Origin: Chlorobium sp.
GTDB lineage: Bacteria > Bacteroidota > Chlorobiia > Chlorobiales > Chlorobiaceae
Assembly (NCBI GenBank): GCA_005843825.1
Contig: SZXX01000009.1
Coordinates: forward strand, 1-47,587
Reading direction: 5' to 3'
DNA: 47,587 bases
How positions within the stretch are numbered: the stretch's first letter is position 1; each line of letters opens with the position of its first letter. The position numbers and the translations under genes were made by a program. Below the pieces are notes generated by a model that made no database searches, was not told where the DNA came from, and saw only the letters and a program-made list of their open reading frames with translations. Shown here in pieces: positions 5,905 through 47,587 of the stretch.

Positions 5905-7191
5905 TCAGGCGTTGTGAGCCGGAATTGGTGTCTCTTCTTCGGTGATGGTCACCTTGGATTTGATGATATCGTAGATTTTGTCTTTAAGAATAGTATCAGT
6001 GATATAATCCCTGAACTCAGAAGACATATAGGTGCTCAGAAGATCTTCTGCATTAGCTGCACCGCCATTTTTACCGGCTTCTTTTTCTGCATAAGCCTTG
6101 ATGTCGTCATCCGATACTTCAAGATTGTCAAGTTCAGCTATTTTCTGGCTGATAAGAAGCCACTGTGCATGTCGTATGGCATTAGGCTTCATCGACAGGC
6201 GGAACTGCTCTTCGTCAAAGCCTTTAGGGAATCGTCCACCCATCTGGCGTTTTGCATTTTCAACAAGCATTTTCGAAAACGAAGCCACCATTGATTCCGG
6301 AGCAGGTATCGGGTTTTCATCAATCATTTTCGCCGAAATGGCTTCAACCAGATCCTCATCAGATTTTAACAAAAAGTGCTGTTCGATCTGGATGTGAACA
6401 TCGGCAGTGAAGTCTGCAACTGTTTCAAATTTCTGACCCGTTAACTCTTTGACCAGATCGTCAGTCAGTTCAGGCAGTTCAAGTCGTTTAATCTCGCTGA
6501 TGTTAACGCGGTATTTGGAAGGCTCAGCCGCGGAATCTTTCTGATCGTTTTCAATTTCAACACTCTCGCCGGCTTTTTTCCCGGTAAGCGCTTTACGGAA
6601 AGGATTCTCTTCCGGCAGGTACTCAAGGGTGAAATGATGGTTCTCAGTTTTTTCGGCCTCTATCGGTTCACCTGCTTCATCGAGCTTGTATACATCGCCG
6701 ATCACCGTGTCGGTTGATAATGCAGCTTCATCAATGCTGATCAAGGTGCCATGACCTTTAAGAATCAGATTGATCTCATTTGCGACATCCTTTTCAGTGA
6801 CAGTATATTTTGCCTTCGTGAAAGAGTATCCGCTGAAATCTTTCAGATCGAATTCAGGATGAATCTCATAAGAGAGCTGAATGGTAAGCTGTTCAGGTTC
6901 AAACTTGAAATTGATGATCTGTGCGCGGCTTGCCGGTTTGATTTTTTCAGCTTCAGCAATTTCCCCGAAATATTTTGACGCCATTTTTTCGGCAATTGTC
7001 GCCTCTATCGATGGGCCTGCCAATTTCTTTATCAAGCCTGCAGGAGCGTGTCCTTTTCTGAATCCCTTGATCTGTATGCTTCTCTTGGCCTCTTCAAGTT
7101 CCTGGTTATATTCGGTACCGAACTCTTCCGCTGAAAGAATAATTTCCAGTTCCTGTTCGGTTTCGTTGACGTTCTTGATATTCTTTTGCAA
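5905..7191 (-). CDS. tig: Trigger factor, ribosome-bound chaperone
   Basis: Trigger factor binds near the ribosome exit tunnel and shields nascent chains. The ribosome-docking loop signature GFRKGHAP is near residues 43-50. A middle FKBP-like domain (about 150-240; [10 protein letters not shown] ... [19 protein letters not shown]) is followed by the long helical C-terminal chaperone arms. At 428 residues it is of normal length. It lies 97 bases downstream of the M16 peptidase gene on the same strand and may share its transcript. Confidence 0.95.
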
Positions 7192-7288
7192 GGCTCTCTC
7201 TGGTTAATTAGTGAGTGTGAAAAATTAAAAGTTAAGAAGATACGAATTAATCCTCTGTTTTAAAACAGACCTTCTCAGGCATTGTGGG

Positions 7289-8569
7289 TTACCGTCCCGG
7301 TTTATAGATCAGAGTGGAATATGGAGCATCATGGAGCAGTCGCTTGGCTGCTTCAGCGATACCCTCAGTCGTGACTGACTCGATTCCGGCAGTTTTTTCT
7401 TCCGGCTCCAGATACCTGCCGAAATATGATATATCAGATGCCATCTGTGACATTCTGCGTGTCATTTTTTCCATGCCCATGATATGCGATCCGAGCAGTT
7501 TGGTTTTTGCAGCCTGAAGCTCTTCCGGGTCTGGATTTTTCAGCGCGTCACTCTGCAGTAACTCCTTGATAAGCTCCATGGTAACCTTCGTCTTATTGCT
7601 GTCGGTGCCGGCATAAATGTTCAGTGTGGTCAGATCATCATAAAAGGTGAGCGATGAATAGACGTTGTAAGCAAGCCCCCTCTTTTCACGCAGTTCCAGA
7701 TTGAGCAGGGAGCTCATGCCATTACCCAGCATTGAGTTCAGAGCCATAAAGCTGTAAAAGAGCGGATCATGCCGGGCGATAGCGGTACCAAGGACGATTT
7801 GTGCCTGACAGACCCGTTTTTTCAGTGTCAGGGCAAAAGGGGTGTAATGTTCTGGACGGAATGGCTGGCGAATATACTGGATGCCCGATGGTTCTCTGAG
7901 TTTGCCGAGAAATCTTTCGCTAAGCCTCATGATCTCATCGTGATCAACTTTTCCTGTAGCCGTGATCAGCATTTTATGCGGAACATAGTGCTGCCGCATG
8001 AAGTTTTTCAGAGTATCATCAGTGAAATTTTCCACACTTTCTTCTGTCCCGAGAATCGGTTTACCGAGAGGGTGGAGGGGAAATGATCGCAGATCAAACT
8101 CATCAAAAATAAGTTCCTCAGGAGTATCGTTGACACTGCTGATCTCCTCAATGACGACCTCTTTTTCTTTTTCGATCTCTTCGGGTGGGAAAACCGGGTC
8201 GCATACAAGATCCGAAAGAAGGTCAAAGGAGGGTTCGAGGTGTTCAGCGAGACAGCGGAGATAGATGCAGGTTTGTTCCTTGGTGGTGAAAGCATCGAGG
8301 TAGCCCCCGTTTTTTTCGATATTCCTGGCGATGTCGATGTATGATCGCCTTCCAGTCCCTTTAAAAAGAGCATGTTCTATAAAATGCGCCAATCCCTGGT
8401 TCTCTTCAGGGTCATCACGCGAACCTGCCTCAATCTGAATGCCGAGGGTAATGCTTTGGACATAAGGCACTGCATCGGTGACAATCTTTAATCCGTTGGC
8501 CAGTTCATCCTGATGGACCGATTCTTCTGAAGCGTGAGTCGGAAGATGCCGGAATTTTTCTTTTGACAT
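7289..8569 (-). CDS. M16 family zinc metallopeptidase
   Basis: The inverted zinc-binding motif HFIEH (HxxEH) is at residues 62-66, followed by ALFKGT, as in pitrilysin/processing-peptidase M16 enzymes. The distal acidic ligand lies in the EKEVVIEEISSVNDTPEE region near 135-150. The second half (about 240-426) is the inactive M16_C lobe, with the conserved ELREKRGLAYNVYS segment. At 426 residues it is a single short M16B-type protein, expected to act as a dimer on small or unfolded peptides. It has no visible signal peptide, so it is probably cytoplasmic. It precedes tig on the same strand. Confidence 0.92.
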   Translation of the reverse strand: MSKEKFRHLPTHASEESVHQDELANGLKIVTDAVPYVQSITLGIQIEAGSRDDPEENQGLAHFIEHALFKGTGRRSYIDIARNIEKNGGYLDAFTTKEQTCIYLRCLAEHLEPSFDLLSDLVCDPVFPPEEIEKEKEVVIEEISSVNDTPEELIFDEFDLRSFPLHPLGKPILGTEESVENFTDDTLKNFMRQHYVPHKMLITATGKVDHDEIMRLSERFLGKLREPSGIQYIRQPFRPEHYTPFALTLKKRVCQAQIVLGTAIARHDPLFYSFMALNSMLGNGMSSLLNLELREKRGLAYNVYSSLTFYDDLTTLNIYAGTDSNKTKVTMELIKELLQSDALKNPDPEELQAAKTKLLGSHIMGMEKMTRRMSQMASDISYFGRYLEPEEKTAGIESVTTEGIAEAAKRLLHDAPYSTLIYKPGR

Positions 8570-22273: not shown

Positions 22274-22975
22274 ATGCAAAAAATTATTATTACCGACTTT
22301 ACCCGGTTCTCTAATCCGAAGATTGTTTGCACTGCAGGAATTGATTTGACAAACGGCCAATGCATTCGACCCATGCCATACCTGAATGCAGTATTTTGTA
22401 AAAGCGAAAACATTGTTCCTGGTGCTATCCTGACGGGAGAATTTACTCCAGTTCAAAATCTTACAGCTCCACATCAGGAAGATATGTCTTACAAAAATCT
22501 ATCCTGTATGGGGCCCTGTACTTCTTCAGAGTTTAAGCTTGCGTTACATGCAGGATTATGTGATTCAGTAGAAAATGGATTTCAGATTGCATTGGCAGAC
22601 AATCAAAAGCACATTCCAATAAGTCATGCAATAGGGAAGTCAATAATCACAATAAAAATACAGCCAGATAAAATAGAAATTGTCGAAGGGACATACAATC
22701 AAAAGAAAATAAAGTTAAATTTTACTGATAATTCGGGTCGTGTTTTCAAATATATACCAATCACTGACCTTGGATTTCATGGTTTCGCTGAGAGTATCCA
22801 TCTGACTAACGGACTGGATACCTTGAACGAATTTATTTGTTCACAATCTGAAGTCTACCTGCGTTTAGGTTTGAGCCGACCTTGGGACAATGGCAAAATA
22901 AATGGGTATTGGATGCAGGTTAATGGACTATATACATTCCCTGATTACCATCATGAAATCAGGAGTTACCGCTGA
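22274..22975 (+). CDS. Putative dual OB-fold protein of a DUF488 cassette
   Basis: The 233-residue product begins with KIIITDFTRFSNPKIVC and the AGIDLTNGQCIRPMP motif, a pattern I associate with the dual-OB (DuOB) proteins found next to DUF488 genes; this assignment is from memory and tentative. The rest is beta-rich, consistent with two small barrels, and ends with a WDNGKINGYWMQVNGLYTFPD strand pair. There is no membrane segment. The base composition is more AT-rich than the flanking core genes. It heads a three-gene plus-strand cassette with two DUF488 genes. OB folds suggest nucleic-acid or nucleotide binding. Confidence 0.7.
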   Translation: MQKIIITDFTRFSNPKIVCTAGIDLTNGQCIRPMPYLNAVFCKSENIVPGAILTGEFTPVQNLTAPHQEDMSYKNLSCMGPCTSSEFKLALHAGLCDSVENGFQIALADNQKHIPISHAIGKSIITIKIQPDKIEIVEGTYNQKKIKLNFTDNSGRVFKYIPITDLGFHGFAESIHLTNGLDTLNEFICSQSEVYLRLGLSRPWDNGKINGYWMQVNGLYTFPDYHHEIRSYR

Positions 22976-23012
22976 TTGATGTCAGCATGCTCATTAAGCT
23001 GGTGCTATCGAG

Positions 23013-23624
23013 ATGAACGAAATTTATACTATAGGTCATTCCAATCATGACATCGCTGCGTTTATCGCGTTGTTGCGCCAGCATAATATCACAGCCCTCT
23101 GTGATGTTCGGTCTCGCCCCTATAGCCGATATGCACCGCACTACTCACGTGAAGCTTTGAAAAATGCATTGGAGGCCGCTGGCATAGCGTATATCTATCT
23201 CGGAAAAGAGTTGGGAGCTCGGAGTGACAATTCAGCCTGCTATAAGCATGGCAGAGTTCAGTATACGCTACTGGCTAAAGAACCTCTGTTTCTGGAAGGC
23301 ATAGATCGCGTCATTGAAGGGATGAAGCGATACCGCATTGCACTGATGTGTGCTGAAAAAGACCCTCTCGAATGTCATAGAGCGCTTTTGGTATCTCGAC
23401 AGCTTTTCGAGAGGGGCGTCCAGGTAAGTCATATTTTAGCCGACAGCTCATTGGAAAGCCATGAAGACCTGGAGTCTCGTCTTCTTGCGCTATGTAAATT
23501 ACCGGAAGGCGATATGTTTAATTCCAGAAAGGATTTTGTTGCAGAGGCATATGTATTGCAGGGAGAACGTGTTGCATATCAGGACGATGCGATGTCCAAG
23601 GAAGAAACGTTCTCGGTACAATGA
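23013..23624 (+). CDS. DUF488 family protein (first of pair)
   Basis: The 203-residue product starts with the DUF488 signature IYTIGHSNHDIAAFIALL, followed by LCDVRSRPYSRY near 29-40, the LGKELG turn near 63, and CAEKDPLECHR at 113-123. The Cys113/Glu115/Cys121-His122-Arg123 set is a conserved putative active site. DUF488 has no established reaction. It lies 37 bases after the dual-OB gene and its stop overlaps the next DUF488 gene by four bases. Confidence 0.9.
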   Translation: MNEIYTIGHSNHDIAAFIALLRQHNITALCDVRSRPYSRYAPHYSREALKNALEAAGIAYIYLGKELGARSDNSACYKHGRVQYTLLAKEPLFLEGIDRVIEGMKRYRIALMCAEKDPLECHRALLVSRQLFERGVQVSHILADSSLESHEDLESRLLALCKLPEGDMFNSRKDFVAEAYVLQGERVAYQDDAMSKEETFSVQ

Positions 23625-24055
23625 AGATTTTTACTATCGGCTTTACCAAGACAACTGCTGAGCAATTTTTCAACCGCTTGCGGCAGCCTGATCTCGTTCG
23701 GCTTATTGATATTCGGATGAATAACAGTTCTCAATTGGCCGGATTTACAAAAATGAAGGACTTGCAGTATTTCCTCCAGGTCATTAATAATATTGACTAT
23801 GTGCACCTGCCTGAATTGTCGCCTACTAAAGAGCTTCTTGATCAATACAAGAAGAATGGAGGCGACTGGGCTACATACGAAAGAGAGTTCCTGTCATTAA
23901 TGACTTCTCGACACATTCAGAATAACGTCGATAAGAATGTCATTGATGGCGGGTGTCTCCTCTGTAGTGAGGTGTCACCTGCACATTGCCATCGCCGTCT
24001 TGTCGCCGAATATTTCCGTGCAAAGTGGGGCGATGTCGAAATTGAACATTTGTAA
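23621..24055 (+). CDS. DUF488 family protein (second of pair)
   Basis: The 144-residue product begins MKIFTIGFTKTTAEQFF and keeps the IDIRMNNSSQLAGFTK motif and the CSEVSPAHCHR box (Cys115, Glu117, Cys123, His124, Arg125). It belongs to the shorter DUF488 subgroup with the R-x-N-x-S motif, distinct from its neighbour's R-x-R-P-x-S. The ATG overlaps the previous stop by four bases (ATGA), showing translational coupling. It ends 33 bases before the convergent radical SAM gene. Confidence 0.9.
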   Translation: MKIFTIGFTKTTAEQFFNRLRQPDLVRLIDIRMNNSSQLAGFTKMKDLQYFLQVINNIDYVHLPELSPTKELLDQYKKNGGDWATYEREFLSLMTSRHIQNNVDKNVIDGGCLLCSEVSPAHCHRRLVAEYFRAKWGDVEIEHL

Positions 24056-26927: not shown

Positions 26928-27153
26928 TTGATTAAGGGTTGATTACATTCTTGATTGAATTTAAGTAATCCCGCCATTATAAAAAAATATTTTTATGTTC
27001 CTGCCCATTGCTATGTTTTTCCCTGGATTCTATTCTGCGTCGGAGGATTTTCGGTGTTTGTTTTTATTGAAACATTTTTTGTTTTAATAGTAACAGGTCG
27101 CTATATTCTTAAGAAATATCAGTAAATCAAATGCAGGGGGGGGAATGGGTGCA

Positions 27154-27540
27154 ATGCTTGAGCCTCAGGTGCTCGCATCTAACGATCGAGGCGCTTTAGC
27201 CAAAATGGTTTTAACGTTGTTCGACCACTGGAACCTGACTACAGAGGATCAGGCACTGCTTTTAGGGCTTGCCTCAACTAACCGGGCGGCGTTATCTCGT
27301 TACCGCAAGGGTGAACCGATAGGAGCCAGTCGTGATCAGTATGACCGAGTCGGTCATTTGCTGGCTATCCATAAGAATCTTCGCTTGCTGTTTCCAAAAA
27401 ACCGGGAACTCGCTTATCGCTGGATTTCGACCCGGAACAAAGCTTTTGATAATCTTACTCCTGTGGAAGTGATCAAAGAGTGGGGGTTCGCAGGTCTTTT
27501 GCTGGTGCGCTCCTATCTGGATCATGCGAAAGGAGTTTGA
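27154..27540 (+). CDS. Xre/MbcA/ParS-type antitoxin
   Basis: The product resembles antitoxins paired with RES toxins. An N-terminal helix-turn-helix-like part (about 15-50: [24 protein letters not shown]) is followed by the toxin-binding domain ([39 protein letters not shown]), which has the MbcA/ParS motif. Two starts are possible. The ATG at 27145 lies one base after a run of eight G residues, too close for ribosome binding. The ATG at 27154 is 10 bases from that run, so it is preferred. The RES toxin gene follows at once. Confidence 0.88.
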
Positions 27541-27545
27541 CTGGT

Positions 27546-28262
27546 ATGGACCAGTTATTTTCACATCTCGCTATAGCTGATATTCATCAGGGCCTGTTCC
27601 GTAACATCGTTTCGTTGAGAGAGAGTGTTGATCTATTCGACGATTTGACTGATAATCCTGAGGAGCGCCTCATGGCGCAACAGGTTGAATTCCATTCGAA
27701 ACCGCAACCGTATCAATCAAACTTTCCGGAAATCAACCGTCCATTTGAAGATGCTCTATGGTTCAATGCTATAACCTGGCCATTCAAAAACTGGCAGGAG
27801 AGCCGTTTTTCTGATGGTTCATTCGGTGTCTGGTATGGTAGCGATACGGTAGAGACGACTGTCTATGAATCCGCATACCACTGGAGTGCGGGATTCCTTC
27901 GCGATGCAGGCTTCGACAAGGAAGAGTCCGTCGTTATCGAGCGCAAGCTCTACAATGTGGCATGCGATGCGGCACTGCTGGATTTTCGCGAGGTCGCTCA
28001 CCGCTATCCCGGTCTTTCGCATAAAACCGATTATAGCTTCACTCATGCAGTCGGAGCAAGGATCCATCGCGAAGGTCATCCCGGTCTGCTCAATATGGCG
28101 GTAAGGCATGAAGGGGGCGTGTCGTATGCGATTTTTAATCCCAATGTCCTTTCCAGTCCTCAACACCATAGCCAGCTCACATATCGTCTTCAAAACGGAT
28201 ACATCTCCGTAGAAGAAACCCCCGGAATTACATGGTTAAAAATAAAATCAGACCTAAGTTGA
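27546..28262 (+). CDS. RES-domain toxin
   Basis: RES toxins degrade NAD+ and are ADP-ribosyltransferase-like. Family features visible are the early [37 protein letters not shown] (the R..DG..GVWY..D...T..E block, with the Glu at the NAD site) and a conserved late [17 protein letters not shown]. The ATG at 27546 follows a good AAAGGAG site and gives 238 residues; an upstream in-frame ATG would overlap the antitoxin and adds no family sequence. It is five bases downstream of the antitoxin, the usual antitoxin-first order. Confidence 0.9.
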
Positions 28263-28636: not shown

Positions 28637-29160
28637 ACATCGCTTTCATAGAATGTTCAGGCAGTAAAAAAAAAGCCCCACATTGCTGCAGGGCTATTTT
28701 CATTAAGGTTCAAGTTTTCCTTCTCCCGCCTTGGCAGCAAGCAGCTGAACCTTGCTTTTGTTTTGGGCGGTATCCTAAGCATAAAAGATACCTCTGAAAG
28801 GCTTTTTTGTATAAGGAGTTGCAAATGGATACTCCCCGAGGCCATGATGTTTTTGCCTTGCCTTGTTCAGGCAACTGGTGTCAGGTGAAGGTGTAGATGC
28901 TTGGTAGCTCGATGGCAGGGCTTCAGAGTTTAGTTTAAAAAAAAGTATTCACTGTCTTCAGCATTAGATATGATGGTTGATCCATACAATGTTGATTCAG
29001 ATACAGTAGTTGTTTTTATGTGTACCTCTATGGCTTCTTCAAGTGTCCATTTTATTGTTGCAAGTCCCCCCCCCCTTTCTTTTGCGCAAGGTGCCGATTG
29101 CACTCTGTGGATAGAAAAGCGAGCATCTTTTTTTATAGCAAATTGTCGTATATTGACACT
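28637..29160. other. Non-coding stretch between the Phd-like gene and the AbiEi-like gene
   Basis: No convincing gene is seen here. It holds a weak terminator-like hairpin (AGCCC at 28674-28678 with GGGCT at 28691-28695), the first copy of the 72-bp direct repeat (28861-28932), and a run of ten C residues at 29066-29075. Confidence 0.5.
28861..28932 (+). repeat. 72-bp direct repeat, copy 1
   Basis: The sequence from CCTTGTTCAGGCAACTGG onward matches 30566-30637 at 61 of 72 positions by eye, with the first 29 bases identical. It lies upstream of the AbiEi-like gene. Nothing suggests it is coding. Confidence 0.85.
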
Positions 29161-29577
29161 ATGAAAAAGAATAAAAACACGCTGCTTACAAGAATAAAAA
29201 TGCGCATCATGCGTAAGCGTGGGGATGTCATTTTGCGTTCAGATTTTAAGGATATTGGCGATTATGACCAGGTAGGACGTTGTTTGCTGATTCTCGTAAA
29301 AGAGGGTGCTCTTATCAAAATAGGTCAGGGGATTTATGTCCGTGCTGTTGTCTCGCCGCTCGATAACCGCCCCACACTCCCCAAAAGTCTGAATAGTCTC
29401 GCTGAAGAAGCCCTGAAGCGACTCGATATCCCGACTGCACCAACAAGCATGGAGCGCCGCTACAATGAAGGCAGAAGCACCCAGGTACCCACCGGCCGGG
29501 TTATAGGTGTCCGCAAACGGGTTCGCCGCTCTATCGGGTTTAAAGGCTATACACTGCGATTTGAGCGGACCCCATGA
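29161..29577 (+). CDS. AbiEi-like antitoxin (DUF6088 type)
   Basis: The 138-residue product has an N-terminal winged helix (about 12-55: RIMRKRGDVILRSDFKDIGDYDQVGRCLLILVKEGALIKIGQGIYV) followed by an Arg-rich C-terminal part with RRYNEGRSTQVPTGRVIGVRKRV. This is the pattern of DUF6088 proteins that precede AbiEii toxins in type IV toxin-antitoxin systems. The ATG at 29161 is the natural start; the frame stays open back to 29020 across the ten-C run. The stop overlaps the toxin ATG by four bases. Confidence 0.85.
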   Translation: MKKNKNTLLTRIKMRIMRKRGDVILRSDFKDIGDYDQVGRCLLILVKEGALIKIGQGIYVRAVVSPLDNRPTLPKSLNSLAEEALKRLDIPTAPTSMERRYNEGRSTQVPTGRVIGVRKRVRRSIGFKGYTLRFERTP

Positions 29578-30464
29578 ACCAAATCCCCCCAACAAAATCA
29601 GCGATACAAAAAGTTGCCGGTATCCTTGTTAACGCAGACGAAGCTTATGTCGAAAAAGATTGGTATGTAGTACAGGTGCTCCGAGTGCTTAATGATATCC
29701 AAACGCATGATATGCAGTTAGTATTTGGCGGGGGTACCTCATTGGCAAAGGCAGGTATTATTAAGCGCTTTTCGGAAGACATAGACTTTAAAGCCACCAT
29801 TCAGCCATCTGGTCATAAGTATTATCGCGAAACCCGTAAAAAAATAATAGCCGCCATTGTTGCCGAAGGGTTGGTTCTTGTTTCAGACCCAAAAGTATAT
29901 GATGAGAGCAGATTCTTTTCACTGGAGGTAGACTATGGTGCCACCTTCACCAAACACTCGCGCTTAAGAACACATATCCGAATAGAGGTTCGTTTTGTTT
30001 CCACACAACTGCCTGTTGTTGTAAAGCCGGTACAATCACTCTTTGCTGCAGTAAAACGACTTCCTGCCGAAATTGCTGCAATGCCCTATGTCAATCCTGT
30101 TGAGATTGCAGCCGACAAATTAAGCGCTCTTGCATGGCGACTGTTTGATAAAGACGAACGTCAGGATAAAACACTTATCCGTCACGTACACGACCTCGCG
30201 GCACTGGAACCTCTAATCACTTCACCACCAGAGTTTGCAAGTCTAGTTGAGCAGGCAATAACCTTCGATCATCATCGCACCGATGTTCTCCCCGAACAAC
30301 GCCTTCAGAAGGTTATGAACGAGCTGAAAACCCCACAATGGGAAGAGGCCTATCAATCATTTGTTCAGGAAATGACCTTCGCCCCCGACAATGAACTCAT
30401 TTCTTACACCACAGCACTTGCCGCATGCGAAAGGCTGATTGAAAGAGTAGAAACAAACAAATGA
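29574..30464 (+). CDS. AbiEii/AbiGii-type nucleotidyltransferase toxin
   Basis: The 296-residue product has the nucleotidyltransferase signature: GGGTSL at 52-57 and SEDIDF at 67-72, providing the two metal-binding Asp residues, then the later NPVEIAADKLSALAWR and HVHDLAAL motifs. AbiEii toxins are GTP-preferring nucleotidyltransferases (some modify tRNA) that stop growth and can abort phage infection. The ATG overlaps the antitoxin stop (ATGA), so the pair is coupled. Confidence 0.92.
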   Translation: MNQIPPTKSAIQKVAGILVNADEAYVEKDWYVVQVLRVLNDIQTHDMQLVFGGGTSLAKAGIIKRFSEDIDFKATIQPSGHKYYRETRKKIIAAIVAEGLVLVSDPKVYDESRFFSLEVDYGATFTKHSRLRTHIRIEVRFVSTQLPVVVKPVQSLFAAVKRLPAEIAAMPYVNPVEIAADKLSALAWRLFDKDERQDKTLIRHVHDLAALEPLITSPPEFASLVEQAITFDHHRTDVLPEQRLQKVMNELKTPQWEEAYQSFVQEMTFAPDNELISYTTALAACERLIERVETNK

Positions 30465-31348: not shown

Positions 31349-32587
31349 ATGATTAATAGTGGTGAGGTACGGATTGAATCATTTAGTGAAATTGATGGCG
31401 ATAGCTATATCCAGCAATTAACTAAAAAACTCAGCGATGAAATAGACGCAAAGCGTAAAGAGTATATTATAGGCGTTGATGAGGATGAATATAAGAATTA
31501 TTTGTATGATAAGCATAAGCTTGATCCACTAATCATAGATTTTAATAGTGAATATATAGCACCCCCATCTGTTCAAAAGGAATGGAGGGAAGGATGGAGA
31601 GGATATGATAATAAGTATCAAATAGATGTATATAAATTTACAGTTACCTATGTTTTTTTAGGTTCTGCAGATATATTTAGAGTTAGGCCTAGTCGATATA
31701 CAATGGTTCATACTTTGCTTTTCATTAATGATAAGGAGAAAAAAGTATCCTTTTCTTTTTTTGTCGACAAAACTGATCCTGACGAATTCAGAATTCAAAA
31801 AGAGAATTCTTTTAAAGCAGCATTTTCAAACTATGAAAGAGCGAACGAAGTGTCTGATCAATGGAATAATAGATTGAAAGACTTAATCAAATTACTATTC
31901 GATAAAAAAAAGAATAAATATATTAAGGAAAATAATTTCTTTGAGGCAATAAATGTAAAAGTTAATGCAGATACAGCGTCAGTTTTTGTGTCACCTACAA
32001 TTATAAAAAAAGATATTCCTCAACCTATTGTGTCTGCTAATAAAGAGTTTTCATCTGATCCAATGATGAGTAAAGATATGTATGATAATATACTCAAAGT
32101 CATATACGAGTCAGGAAAAAGTATGGAGAAAAAGCCTTCATTATATCAAAATAAAGATGAAGAAGGTCTAAGGGATCAGTTCCTTTTTGTTTTAGAAACT
32201 CGTTATGAAGGGACAACTGCAACTGGTGAGACTTTTAATAGGAATGGTAAAACAGATATTATATTAAAATATTCACCTGATGCTAGTAATTTATTTGTAG
32301 CTGAGTGCAAATTTTGGCATGGAAGTTCTGAATTTCTTAAAGCAATCTCACAGCTTTTAGGATATTTGACATGGCGTGATTCTAAGGTAGCTCTGATAAT
32401 TTTTGTCAAAAACAAAGATTTTAGTAATGTTGTCAATGTCATTAAGGCTGATATAAAGTCGCATTTATGTTTTGAAAAGGAAATAGGAAATAGAGGAGAA
32501 ACATCACTAAGCTATATATTTCATTTAGAGCAGGATATACAACGAAAAGTGTTTTTAGAAATAATCGCATTTCATTACGATCAATAA
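31349..32587 (+). CDS. Putative PD-(D/E)XK nuclease-like protein
   Basis: The 412-residue product is visibly more AT-rich than its neighbours, a sign of transfer. No named family is certain for the first 270 residues, which are charged and contain a beta-rich part (about 80-160). The C-terminal third has a restriction-endonuclease-like core: GKTDIIL with Asp303, then AECKFW with Glu319 and Lys321, then SQLLGYLTWRDSKVALIIFVK, the helix and strand order of PD-(D/E)XK folds. It stands alone, with no methylase or helicase. A single-gene defence nuclease is an inference. Confidence 0.75.
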   Translation: MINSGEVRIESFSEIDGDSYIQQLTKKLSDEIDAKRKEYIIGVDEDEYKNYLYDKHKLDPLIIDFNSEYIAPPSVQKEWREGWRGYDNKYQIDVYKFTVTYVFLGSADIFRVRPSRYTMVHTLLFINDKEKKVSFSFFVDKTDPDEFRIQKENSFKAAFSNYERANEVSDQWNNRLKDLIKLLFDKKKNKYIKENNFFEAINVKVNADTASVFVSPTIIKKDIPQPIVSANKEFSSDPMMSKDMYDNILKVIYESGKSMEKKPSLYQNKDEEGLRDQFLFVLETRYEGTTATGETFNRNGKTDIILKYSPDASNLFVAECKFWHGSSEFLKAISQLLGYLTWRDSKVALIIFVKNKDFSNVVNVIKADIKSHLCFEKEIGNRGETSLSYIFHLEQDIQRKVFLEIIAFHYDQ

Positions 32588-44610: not shown

Positions 44611-45645
44611 CTAACCGCTGATAGCCCGATTAACCATCTTCGCTACATTTGGCACCATTTTTACTGACACCAACACAATGTCAGGATGATTTTTGGCATA
44701 AACGCGAAATATTTCGTCGGCAAATGCCTGGCCTATAGCCGACACCCCATCAAAGTCAAAAATTACATGTTTGAACCTCTCTATACGACAGAGCAACCTT
44801 TTTGCCTGAGATCGAGATACCAGTTTCTCATTTTCATATTGCGCTAACCGAACAGGAATAACTGTTTTGTTAAACTGAAATTCATCCGGCCCAGCATAAT
44901 CATCAAAAACCGTCTGGATTTCACGCGAAGAATCTCTCTTAAGAAGCATATATACCGCAGTACCAGCTTCGTTTTCAGAAAATTCGGACTCCAGAATAAC
45001 ATCAAATTCAAACTGATCATCATGACGAAACCTCACGCCTTTTGAATCAATTTCGAACTCATCAAATACCCTTGAAGTAAAGAATATCCCTTCCCCTGTA
45101 TGATTATCCGGATCAGTAGTCAATTTCCCTTTCGATAGCTCAAAGAGTGCCTGACGCTCATCATCCAGATTACACAACCGCCTGATCTTCCTGAAAATGC
45201 CCTCCCCATCGTCAATCACGGAGATCATGATTTTTTCATTATCTCTTATAGCCGAGATAGAAACATGTTTCCCTCCGGAATGATCAAGTACGTTATTTAC
45301 CATTTCGGTAAAACCGTAGTGACATATATCGACAATGTTTTCAGGCAAACCTTCGAATACAAATGAATATTCATTCCTCCAAACACCATCTTCAGTCAGG
45401 TCATCTGCGAGGATAAAGTGCGACTTATGCTCCCTCAGGTCTCCTAAATAATATTTTTTCCCCTTTCCAGTACCTGTAGATTTTAATCGTCCCTCTTTTT
45501 CAAGGCGCTGCGTATGGCTATATACTGCCTGAGGGGTTATAGAGAATATTTTGGCAATATGCTTTGAAATATCAGCAGAATGCTGCCTGACATCACTGAT
45601 GATTTGGCGCCGTATTTCCTCGCCCCTTTCTTTATTATTATTCAC
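44611..45645 (-). CDS. wHTH - GHKL ATPase - STAS-like (DUF4325) regulator
   Basis: The 344-residue product has three parts. Residues 10-67 form a winged helix (SADISKHIAKIFSITPQAVYSHTQRLEKEGRL). Residues about 85-240 form a GHKL ATPase: N box EMVNNVLDHS (114-123), G1 DDGEGI (145-150), G2 TGEGIFF (183-189). Residues about 262-340 form a STAS-like DUF4325 domain with FDFDGVSAIGQAFADEIF. This combines DNA binding with the two halves of a partner-switching module in one chain. The start is a GTG at 45645, with an AAAGG ribosome-binding site inside an inverted repeat. The gene overlaps the end of a truncated frame upstream by four bases. Confidence 0.85.
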   Translation of the reverse strand: MNNNKERGEEIRRQIISDVRQHSADISKHIAKIFSITPQAVYSHTQRLEKEGRLKSTGTGKGKKYYLGDLREHKSHFILADDLTEDGVWRNEYSFVFEGLPENIVDICHYGFTEMVNNVLDHSGGKHVSISAIRDNEKIMISVIDDGEGIFRKIRRLCNLDDERQALFELSKGKLTTDPDNHTGEGIFFTSRVFDEFEIDSKGVRFRHDDQFEFDVILESEFSENEAGTAVYMLLKRDSSREIQTVFDDYAGPDEFQFNKTVIPVRLAQYENEKLVSRSQAKRLLCRIERFKHVIFDFDGVSAIGQAFADEIFRVYAKNHPDIVLVSVKMVPNVAKMVNRAISG

Positions 45646-46034
45646 CGCTTATCCTTTAAGAAACGCTCTTTCTTAAAGGATAACTGTTTTTTTCTTAATG
45701 GACAAAACAATTTTCTTAAAGGATGGGGTGCAATTATTCCTGCGAAACACTTCACCAATATTTTATTGGTATAGATCGCATATTTCGCCGTACCCATAGA
45801 CATATAGTTCTTAAGAGCGCCTGTGAATTGCTTGCGATAGTTTTCTTCTTCAAACCAGGAGGTCAGAAATTCTTCATCTCGTTGGTTGATGTACTTGGTA
45901 CCGCCTCCGGTTTTCTGGTTGATGGTATCTATGACAATATCTAATATGACCTGACGAAGAACACGAGCCTTCTCGCTTTCTGCAATCAGCATGGCCAGAT
46001 TGAGGAATGCCCGGAAGTGTACCCTTATATTGTT
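45642..46034 (-). pseudogene. Truncated remnant of a conserved gene
   Basis: The frame from the ATG at 45992 encodes 116 residues, but family-like sequence already starts upstream, at codons reading VHFRAFLNLAM, with a stop (TAA) before them near 46034 and no start. The conserved part (IAESEKARVLRQVILDIVIDTINQ, GGGTKYINQRDEEFL, NYRKQFTGALKNYMSMGTAKYAIYTNKI) ends abruptly. From about residue 88 the frame just translates the 13-bp repeat array (45651-45724). I recall this conserved stretch as part of a larger protein but cannot name the family with certainty. Both ends are lost, so it is a remnant. Confidence 0.65.
45651..45724. promoter_or_regulatory. Four-copy 13-bp repeat array upstream of the wHTH-GHKL-STAS gene
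   Basis: The unit TTTCTTAAAGGAT occurs at 45669-45681 and 45712-45724, with a variant (TTTCTTAATGGAC) at 45691-45703. An exact inverted copy, ATCCTTTAAGAAA, is at 45651-45663. The three direct copies are 22 and 21 bases apart, two helical turns. The inverted copy faces the first direct one across CGCTC, forming a perfect 13-bp hairpin, and its AAAGG is the ribosome-binding site of the gene starting at 45645. A repressor operator array is the simplest reading. Confidence 0.8.
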
Positions 46035-46106
46035 TTAACGAAAATCTGATTGCGCTTTTTCATTTGCATGTTGTGGGCGGTGAAGGTTTGCACTGTGTTG
46101 GATTTA

Positions 46107-46295
46107 TTATGTGATTTCCAGTAGTTTTGCTTTGGCTCGGACCATGGAAACAAATGGATTTTCCTCGACGCATGGATTTTTGACCAGAATACCGACAGGA
46201 AGGTTTAGTGGTTGTTCCAATAGAGTTTTAATACGTGCACAATCCAATAAACTTTTGCGTCTTCTTATTAAGAATCTCTTTTTTACCCGCTCGCA
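46107..46295 (-). pseudogene. Possible 3' gene fragment downstream of the AlbA_2-like gene
   Basis: The frame stays open between a TGA (46296-46298) and a TAA (46107-46109) for 62 codons and reads like protein (RIKTLLEQPLNLPVGILVKN then CVEENPFVSMVRAKAKLLEI). No start codon with a ribosome-binding site is visible. I do not recognise it. It may be the tail of a gene whose front was lost; the rest of 46035-46311 shows nothing more. Confidence 0.35.
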
Positions 46296-46311
46296 TCAGT
46301 CAAGTAATAAA

Positions 46312-47587
46312 CTATTGTGAGTTGGACTTTTTGGCTGGTAAATACCGTTTCTGCGGGTCATAAGCACTCTTTCCAATTGCGACTATCCTGCCGGTTTCAA
46401 CAAGATTTGCTAAATGTCTCCTGACAGAACGAGCAACCAACCCTGTTACAGCCACCAAATCCTTTATTGAGGCTCCTCCCTCATTTTCATGTTGGATAAT
46501 ACAAGCAAGAATCTGCTGATCAATCGAACTTTCTGTAGTCTCACGAACTTGTCGCAACCACATCATAACGCGGAAATGGTAGCCAATTTCTTCAAACTCA
46601 GGTGGAGGAAAACCATCTTGACGGCAATTATCATCCATGCGCTGAAAGCCACTTCCCCATTGTTCAATGAGGTCAAGTTCCTTGAAGACTCTACCAATGA
46701 CTCTATTACGAAGCTTAGAGACACCAGAACGAAGGCTCTCAAGAGTCAGGCCTCCAGTCAAAAGGCCAGGATTTTCAATTTCGATCCGGTCATCATATAT
46801 TGCCACCCGAATTGGTGCGCCGCGTTGCGAATAATCTGCATGAACAATGGCGTTTGTCAGGGCTTCACGAATGGCTTTGAGCGGCATATTCCAGACATCC
46901 TTCCTTCGCAACTCACCAAACTCTGCCGCCCGTGAGGCATGTTTCTTGATAAAGTCAAAGGCTTTTTCCAAGGCAACAGGCAAGTGATCGCTGATATCCT
47001 GCTGATCCAGAATTTCAGTTTTATTGGTGCCACGAAAACGACCGCATTGAACCCATGCATCAGGGAAATAGCGATCGCGCACTGTTCCGAACAGAAGCAT
47101 ACCTCCTACTGTCGGGACAAGTCGACCTTGATACTGAGTAACGAGCCGTAATGTTTCTGGCACATGATCACTCCAATCACGTAATCCTGCAAATAACCCG
47201 GACACAACCCGGACGTCCAGCGTGTCAGGGTTGATGTCCGGCAGAGGTTCTTCATCATAAGAGAGATTCAGCGCTGAACGTCGCATTTCCGCTGTCAATG
47301 GCCCATCAGCTTGCCGATTGGTCGAGCCAACCCGAACCAGTACACCATTAGTGATACCCTGCGATTTCAGCCAGTGGGGTCGCAAAGCGCTGGGATATAC
47401 CTCCACCAAAAGCAGCGATCGTCCTTTCCAGTTGACTAACTCTACATTTGGAGCCAGTCGCGGTTCAATAGAATCAGCAATCAGGTTACACAACCTTTCC
47501 TCTTCGTCCAGAGGGTGTTCCAGCCCAAGCACTGCTTTGCTGCCATCCTCAATTCCTATCAACACTATATAGAGGACCCCGATTTTT
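46312..47587 (-). CDS. AlbA_2/Schlafen-like ATP-binding protein (5' partial)
   Basis: The frame runs off the right edge of the window, so the N terminus is missing; its visible start reads KIGVLYIVLIGIEDGSK, the core of an AlbA_2 (divergent AAA-4) domain. Then come the HWLKSQG and VLVRVGSTNRQA segments, a middle domain, an HATPase_c_4-like part (AIREALTNAIVHADYSQRGAPIRVAIYDDRIEIENPG) and a C-terminal winged helix (SIKDLVAVTGLVARSVRRHLANLVETG). Such proteins are often annotated as putative ATP-dependent DNA helicases related to RecG N-terminal parts and are common next to mobile or defence genes. Role unknown. Confidence 0.88.
   Translation of the reverse strand, partial: KIGVLYIVLIGIEDGSKAVLGLEHPLDEEERLCNLIADSIEPRLAPNVELVNWKGRSLLLVEVYPSALRPHWLKSQGITNGVLVRVGSTNRQADGPLTAEMRRSALNLSYDEEPLPDINPDTLDVRVVSGLFAGLRDWSDHVPETLRLVTQYQGRLVPTVGGMLLFGTVRDRYFPDAWVQCGRFRGTNKTEILDQQDISDHLPVALEKAFDFIKKHASRAAEFGELRRKDVWNMPLKAIREALTNAIVHADYSQRGAPIRVAIYDDRIEIENPGLLTGGLTLESLRSGVSKLRNRVIGRVFKELDLIEQWGSGFQRMDDNCRQDGFPPPEFEEIGYHFRVMMWLRQVRETTESSIDQQILACIIQHENEGGASIKDLVAVTGLVARSVRRHLANLVETGRIVAIGKSAYDPQKRYLPAKKSNSQ

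Follow-up and report, generated by a model that had tools for sequence, protein, structure and literature searches.

PADLOC lists, among candidate anti-phage systems, PDC-M45, composed of a DuOB protein (PDC-M45A) and two DUF488 proteins (PDC-M45B and PDC-M45C); our literature search found no paper on DuOB and none naming PDC-M45. DUF488 occurs in many prokaryotes, E. coli among them, as seen in control searches, and to our knowledge has no established reaction. Burroughs and Aravind reportedly placed it in 2023, together with DUF4326, in one RapZ-C-DUF488-DUF4326 clade of the rhodanese-phosphatase superfamily, and are said to have predicted DNA-end processing within conflict systems for the DUF488/DUF4326 clade. 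DUF4326 has been assigned to that superfamily and predicted to strip terminal phosphates off ADP-ribose (PMC9503650).

We analysed a 47,587-nucleotide stretch of a Chlorobium sp. contig (SZXX01000009.1), the whole of which is called the window, and which carries three packed plus-strand genes, here A, B and C (Table 1). The 37-base A-B gap and 4-base B-C overlap described in an earlier, sequence-only reading of this DNA agree with the ORF coordinates. Gene A is more AT-rich, as that reading had remarked (38.0% GC, against 46.6% for B, 43.2% for C and 45.5% for the whole window); because the closest cassette orthologue of A (in locus L008) is likewise AT-rich, at 36.7% GC, we regard the low GC as characteristic of this gene wherever these genomes carry it, not as the mark of a separate, recent acquisition. 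Both B and C match the corresponding PADLOC models at full length (residues 2-198 of 203 for B; residues 1-144 for C, 226.2 bits), and A passes Pfam DuOB (PF22557) with 33.5 bits, above the curated cut-off of 27, but the PDC-M45A models gave no match to A at E ≤ 1. Elsewhere the usual upstream DuOB belongs to another subfamily, A2, of which 34 of 34 aligned members match Pfam DuOB and 34 of 34 match PDC-M45A; profiles of A2 and of the window's subfamily, A1, can be aligned from end to end, though only weakly (E 1.7e-4 with a probability of 49% in hhalign). Since B and C match PDC-M45 while A1 escapes the PDC-M45A models, the window holds a PDC-M45-like variant with a diverged DuOB. Judged by these profile matches the cassette represents no new kind but a variant form of a candidate anti-phage system that PADLOC already lists, and the published candidate models miss one DuOB subfamily.

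Table 1. Features of the window cassette, and mobile regions carrying its third enzyme alone
Feature	Position	Strand	Length and basis
Gene A, DuOB (dual-OB), divergent subfamily A1	22274..22975	+	233 aa; Pfam DuOB, AF2 model
Gene B, DUF488, PDC-M45B	23013..23624	+	203 aa; PADLOC 285.7 bits, DUF488 91.9 bits
Gene C, DUF488-N3a, PDC-M45C	23621..24055	+	144 aa; PADLOC, Pfam, AF2
B active-site-like box C113-A-E-K-D-P-L-E-C121-H122-R123	23349..23381	+	Invariant residues in homologues
C active-site-like box C115-S-E-V-S-P-A-H-C123-H124-R125	23963..23995	+	Invariant residues, AF2 model
Solitary C-type DUF488 with uvrA/uvrB, mobile formaldehyde-resistance islands	L132 4001-4432; L133, L134, L136-L139, L141, L142; L066-L082		

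Downstream of the cassette the window holds an Xre/MbcA-RES toxin-antitoxin pair (27145-28262) and an AbiEi/AbiEii pair (29020-30464), the two spanning 3-6.5 kb downstream. A stretch of 31% GC (31349-32587) encodes a 412-aa protein without a Pfam match and then a hexapeptide transferase, HATPase/DUF4325 and AlbA_2/RecG-like ATPase genes lie at 44614-47565, and one gene in the window matches PADLOC PDC-S54 (E 2.4e-104).

Genome contigs were scanned with C alone, yielding 80 loci from many bacterial phyla, or 64 distinct C loci once the 16 that are copies of a single mobile element (L066-L074, L076-L082) are removed. B lies beside C in 56 of the 64 and a DuOB gene is present in 50; where B-C pairs had enough upstream sequence, 49 of 52 had a DuOB, and pairs without one were seen in L010, L055 and L058. 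Of 46 B-C pairs examined for spacing, 34 have the same 4-base overlap. Linkage of A, B and C is far above chance, given that a sample of 198 genomes from the phylum yielded a DuOB match in just 5. The expectation that the three genes would recur together elsewhere was thus borne out, and the cassette is real, mobile and conserved. Searches of annotated plasmids for the window's own A, and of annotated phage records for C and DuOB, found none. In one gammaproteobacterial locus (L038) an A of the window type stands together with B, C and an A2 whose frame is broken. Placing A1 and A2 on the B-C tree takes 5 changes, of which well supported branches force only 1; the tree thus hints at repeated A1/A2 swapping.

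Two architectures are found, namely type I (DuOB, DUF488 B and DUF488-N3a C, as in the window) and type II (DuOB, DUF488-N3a and mSLOG-DUF4326). The genome and viral-contig collections hold 59 type I and 26 type II loci, and no locus combines B with DUF4326; near-duplicate contigs among them make these numbers non-independent, but the exclusivity has no exception, and B and mSLOG-DUF4326 thus seem to occupy one slot. Type II lies mostly on viral contigs (25 DuOB-C-DUF4326 loci there, and 10 DuOB-B-C), and a genome locus without B (L036) has a DUF4326 gene directly after C. The three components, a DuOB, a DUF488 of the C type and a DUF4326 protein, also occur together on Citrobacter, Leclercia, Acinetobacter and Moraxella plasmids, where the DUF4326 proteins have an N-terminal mSLOG domain wherever this could be scored; E. 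coli genomes held no near copy of the Citrobacter cassette. On the 4167-bp Klebsiella plasmid pB16KP0202-4 (L130) a complete DuOB-DUF488-DUF4326 cassette makes up most of the coding content. A1-type DuOBs are found in type II cassettes as well (L170, L173). In an hhalign comparison the box of DUF4326, C-x-C-K-P-x-x-C-H-G, lines up with that of DUF488, C-S-E-x-x-P-x-x-C-H-R, at E 9e-4 but with a probability of just 23%.

In related Chlorobium genomes the cassette site, an interval between an HD gene and a radical-SAM gene, is found in several states: empty (L109-L115), with A alone (L100, L104, L105, L107), with A and B without C (L106, L108), and with A, B and C (the window and L103). The A-only genomes have no DUF488 anywhere and no DUF4326. 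Three of them share one deletion junction, and pairwise comparison of their A genes gives dN/dS of 0.20-0.26; at a dS of 0.26-0.43, and without the enzymes, this points to purifying selection that has kept A functional. The four genomes that keep an intact A in the absence of both enzymes argue for an independent role of A, DNA binding for example, and any model has to make room for one. Later acquisition of B and C than of A was rejected as the default, because A-B-C is the order across phyla. Between L106 and the window B is closer (dS 0.18) than A (dS 0.44), a mismatch showing that recombination also occurred. Decaying cassettes are seen in Chlorobiaceae (L101/L003, and L011 at 6782-7384), in which a RelE-type-toxin-like stretch replaces the N-terminal DuOB barrel and C has a stop codon.

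For A, the AF2 model (pLDDT 84.5) has two OB barrels, and its Foldseek matches to two-OB proteins (E 1.6e-4 to 1e-3) are led by RPA (1.6e-4) and HIN-200 domains (from 1.8e-4), thus including innate DNA sensors (AIM2/IFI16); with identity of about 10% and TM-scores below 0.5, these matches speak to fold type only. The OB fold proposed for the first protein is thereby upheld at the level of prediction, as two barrels matching those of two-OB DNA-binding proteins. Sequence searches for solved relatives, including single and profile searches for B and C, found none for any of the three proteins. B and C both match Pfam DUF488 (PF04343; 77.3 bits for C) and, as had been read from their R-x-R-P-x-S and R-x-N-x-S motifs, belong to distinct subgroups (DVRSRPYS...CAEKDPLECHR in B, DIRMNNSS...CSEVSPAHCHR in C): only C passes DUF488-N3a (PF22751, cut-off 27), with 40.5 bits against 14.5 for B. 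The C-x-E...C-H-R box is kept in both, its Cys and Cys-His-Arg, along with the Asp-x-Arg residues, being invariant across 50 B and 60 C homologues (C113, P118, C121, H122 and R123 in B; C115, E117, C123, H124 and R125 in C). In the Rossmannoid AF2 model of C (pLDDT 94.1), strand 111-115 terminates at C115, the next helix begins at 124, by C123-H124-R125, D30 and R32, both invariant, are found where strand 2 ends, and H143 is part of the last strand; these modelled positions suggest that the residues share one pocket. Structural matches to C were weak, none exceeding Z 8 (diphthine synthase 7.0, a PTP-fold phosphatase 6.5, tetrapyrrole methylases up to 7.8), and Foldseek gave none at E ≤ 0.001; matches to tetrapyrrole methylases, CTP synthase and SonM, being weak and of a common fold, were not taken as guides to function.

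As for the cassette's surroundings, type II cassettes adjoin genes resembling terminase large subunits in L155, L163 and L177, the first two also with portal-like genes nearby, and one (L169) lies within a Mu-like head region, all from translations read by eye; two of the viral-contig stretches had no near match among phage records. Type I cassettes adjoin a HORMA-CBASS operon on Agrobacterium pAt1D1108a and lie between csx16/cas1 and csm6 on Allochromatium pAt1. A PADLOC tally of cassette flanks included PglX, RmrA, HEC-01 and parts of type I/III restriction-modification systems; this tally was uncontrolled and is not counted as proof. The HORMA-CBASS, Csx16/Cas1-Csm6 and phage-gene neighbours, together with the Xre-RES and AbiE pairs of the window, tend to support a conflict role. 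The suggestion of a possible defence system made in the sequence-only reading thus gains from the PDC-M45 candidate listing and from known-defence neighbours in some loci, and is held back by DNA repair as a serious rival.

We consider the locus best explained, with a probability of about 0.5, as a mobile, operon-encoded, DNA-directed conflict cassette that is probably anti-phage. From the genes it holds, their coupling in an operon, their spread and the exclusivity of the partners, and from the conserved putative active sites, the prophage and defence-island settings and the two-OB prediction, we infer DNA binding, catalysis, a substrate and phage protection as follows. The dual-OB protein A would bind DNA as a single strand, at ends or in an unusual structure, and would bring two related Rossmannoid enzymes onto invading DNA or regulate them. 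These may use the strand-end Cys together with the Cys-His-Arg found where the next helix starts, in a loop resembling the one known from the rhodanese/PTP superfamily, and, if the step from fold to reaction holds, could act on phosphate, sugar or adduct groups, whether carried by DNA or by nucleotides freed from it. C (DUF488-N3a) would be the constant enzyme, with the second slot taken by the DUF488 protein B in type I, as in the window, or by mSLOG-DUF4326 in type II.

The main rival arises from the settings in which C-type DUF488 occurs without DuOB, as is common on conjugative plasmids. In 10 of the 11 such plasmid regions inspected uvrA or uvrB adjoins the solitary gene, and most also carry frmR or a formaldehyde/alcohol dehydrogenase; uvrA is the neighbour on E. 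coli IncX5, Aeromonas, Klebsiella IncC, and Enterobacter and Leclercia IncHI2A plasmids, and uvrB (its product confirmed by Pfam) in Acinetobacter, Comamonas, Aeromonas IncP and the Pseudomonas/Burkholderia element (L066-L082). The solitary proteins are about 50-60% identical to C, and we found no paper joining at least four of the terms formaldehyde, frmR, uvrB, plasmid and DUF488. This adjacency ties the constant enzyme to DNA damage and favours DNA adducts or ends as its substrate, and the whole cassette could accordingly be a DNA-repair or chemical-stress module whose enzymes clean damaged or aldehyde-modified DNA, with DuOB guiding them to lesions. Because DUF488-N3a does stand alone in such repair islands, we treat this rival as serious, if on balance somewhat unlikely: DuOB and B are absent from the uvr islands, so that the repair evidence concerns C and not the cassette, and a scattered distribution, carriage by prophages and neighbours from defence islands are features seen more typically with conflict systems. 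The occurrence of C without A in repair islands, like the intact A that persists without B and C in four genomes, nonetheless counts against the conflict-cassette reading, as do the negative searches for solved relatives of B and C and for a Foldseek match to C.

Two other readings account for parts of the pattern. The enzymes might make or erase phosphorylated ADP-ribose-like products in an NAD+/ADP-ribose or nucleotide-signal system, with DuOB as its nucleic-acid trigger; the type II partner belongs to the family predicted to act on ADP-ribose terminal phosphates (PMC9503650), and in L065 (7833-9471) a C-type gene overlaps one for PARG, the ADP-ribose glycohydrolase of macro fold, but the cassette itself has no NAD+-consuming enzyme and the uvrA/uvrB association suggests DNA as the substrate, leaving this system doubtful. 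A toxin-antitoxin arrangement, in which B and C are toxic and A is the antitoxin, would explain why the enzymes are lost while A is retained, as in the A-only genomes, with their low dN/dS, and the two genomes lacking C alone. It appears very improbable to us: C occurs alone on many plasmids and B-C pairs occur without DuOB, so that B and C are not obviously toxic without A, which speaks against obligate neutralisation by A, and the dual-OB fold predicted for A would be unlike that of usual antitoxins.

The conflict-cassette reading and the uvr islands might also be joined, in a proposal that we regard as unlikely: DUF488-N3a would be a DNA adduct- or end-processing enzyme in two settings, namely alongside nucleotide excision repair in formaldehyde-resistance islands and in DuOB-guided defence, where its partner would be either DUF488 or SLOG-DUF4326, against chemically unusual or incoming phage DNA. 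If it is true, defence and aldehyde-damage repair share one chemistry. The gene settings narrow the question of DUF488 by showing DUF488-N3a as the constant enzyme alongside DuOB and a second protein that can be exchanged and, on common plasmids, as a neighbour of uvr and formaldehyde genes, and they give two independent assays (phage plating, and formaldehyde/crosslink sensitivity) and a defined substrate class. In the sources searched we found no earlier description of the two exclusive architectures, of the graded loss with A retained or of the uvr/formaldehyde link.

Among known systems the window cassette is closest to PDC-M45, with which it shares gene order, spacing style and the B-C overlap, differing in a DuOB of another subfamily. 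Type II cassettes of plasmids and prophages have DuOB, DUF488-N3a and tight packing in common with it, but mSLOG-DUF4326 replaces DUF488 B as the second enzyme. At the level of folds, A is like the HIN-200 (AIM2/IFI16) and RPA tandem-OB DNA binders in its two predicted consecutive OB barrels, an analogy of fold only. C, whose model is Rossmannoid, resembles the rhodanese-phosphatase superfamily in having a Cys ending a strand and an Arg starting the next helix, its structural matches there being weak; compared with classical PTPs, C and B have a Cys-to-Arg spacing of C-x9-R, not C-x5-R, and a second Cys-His ahead of the Arg.
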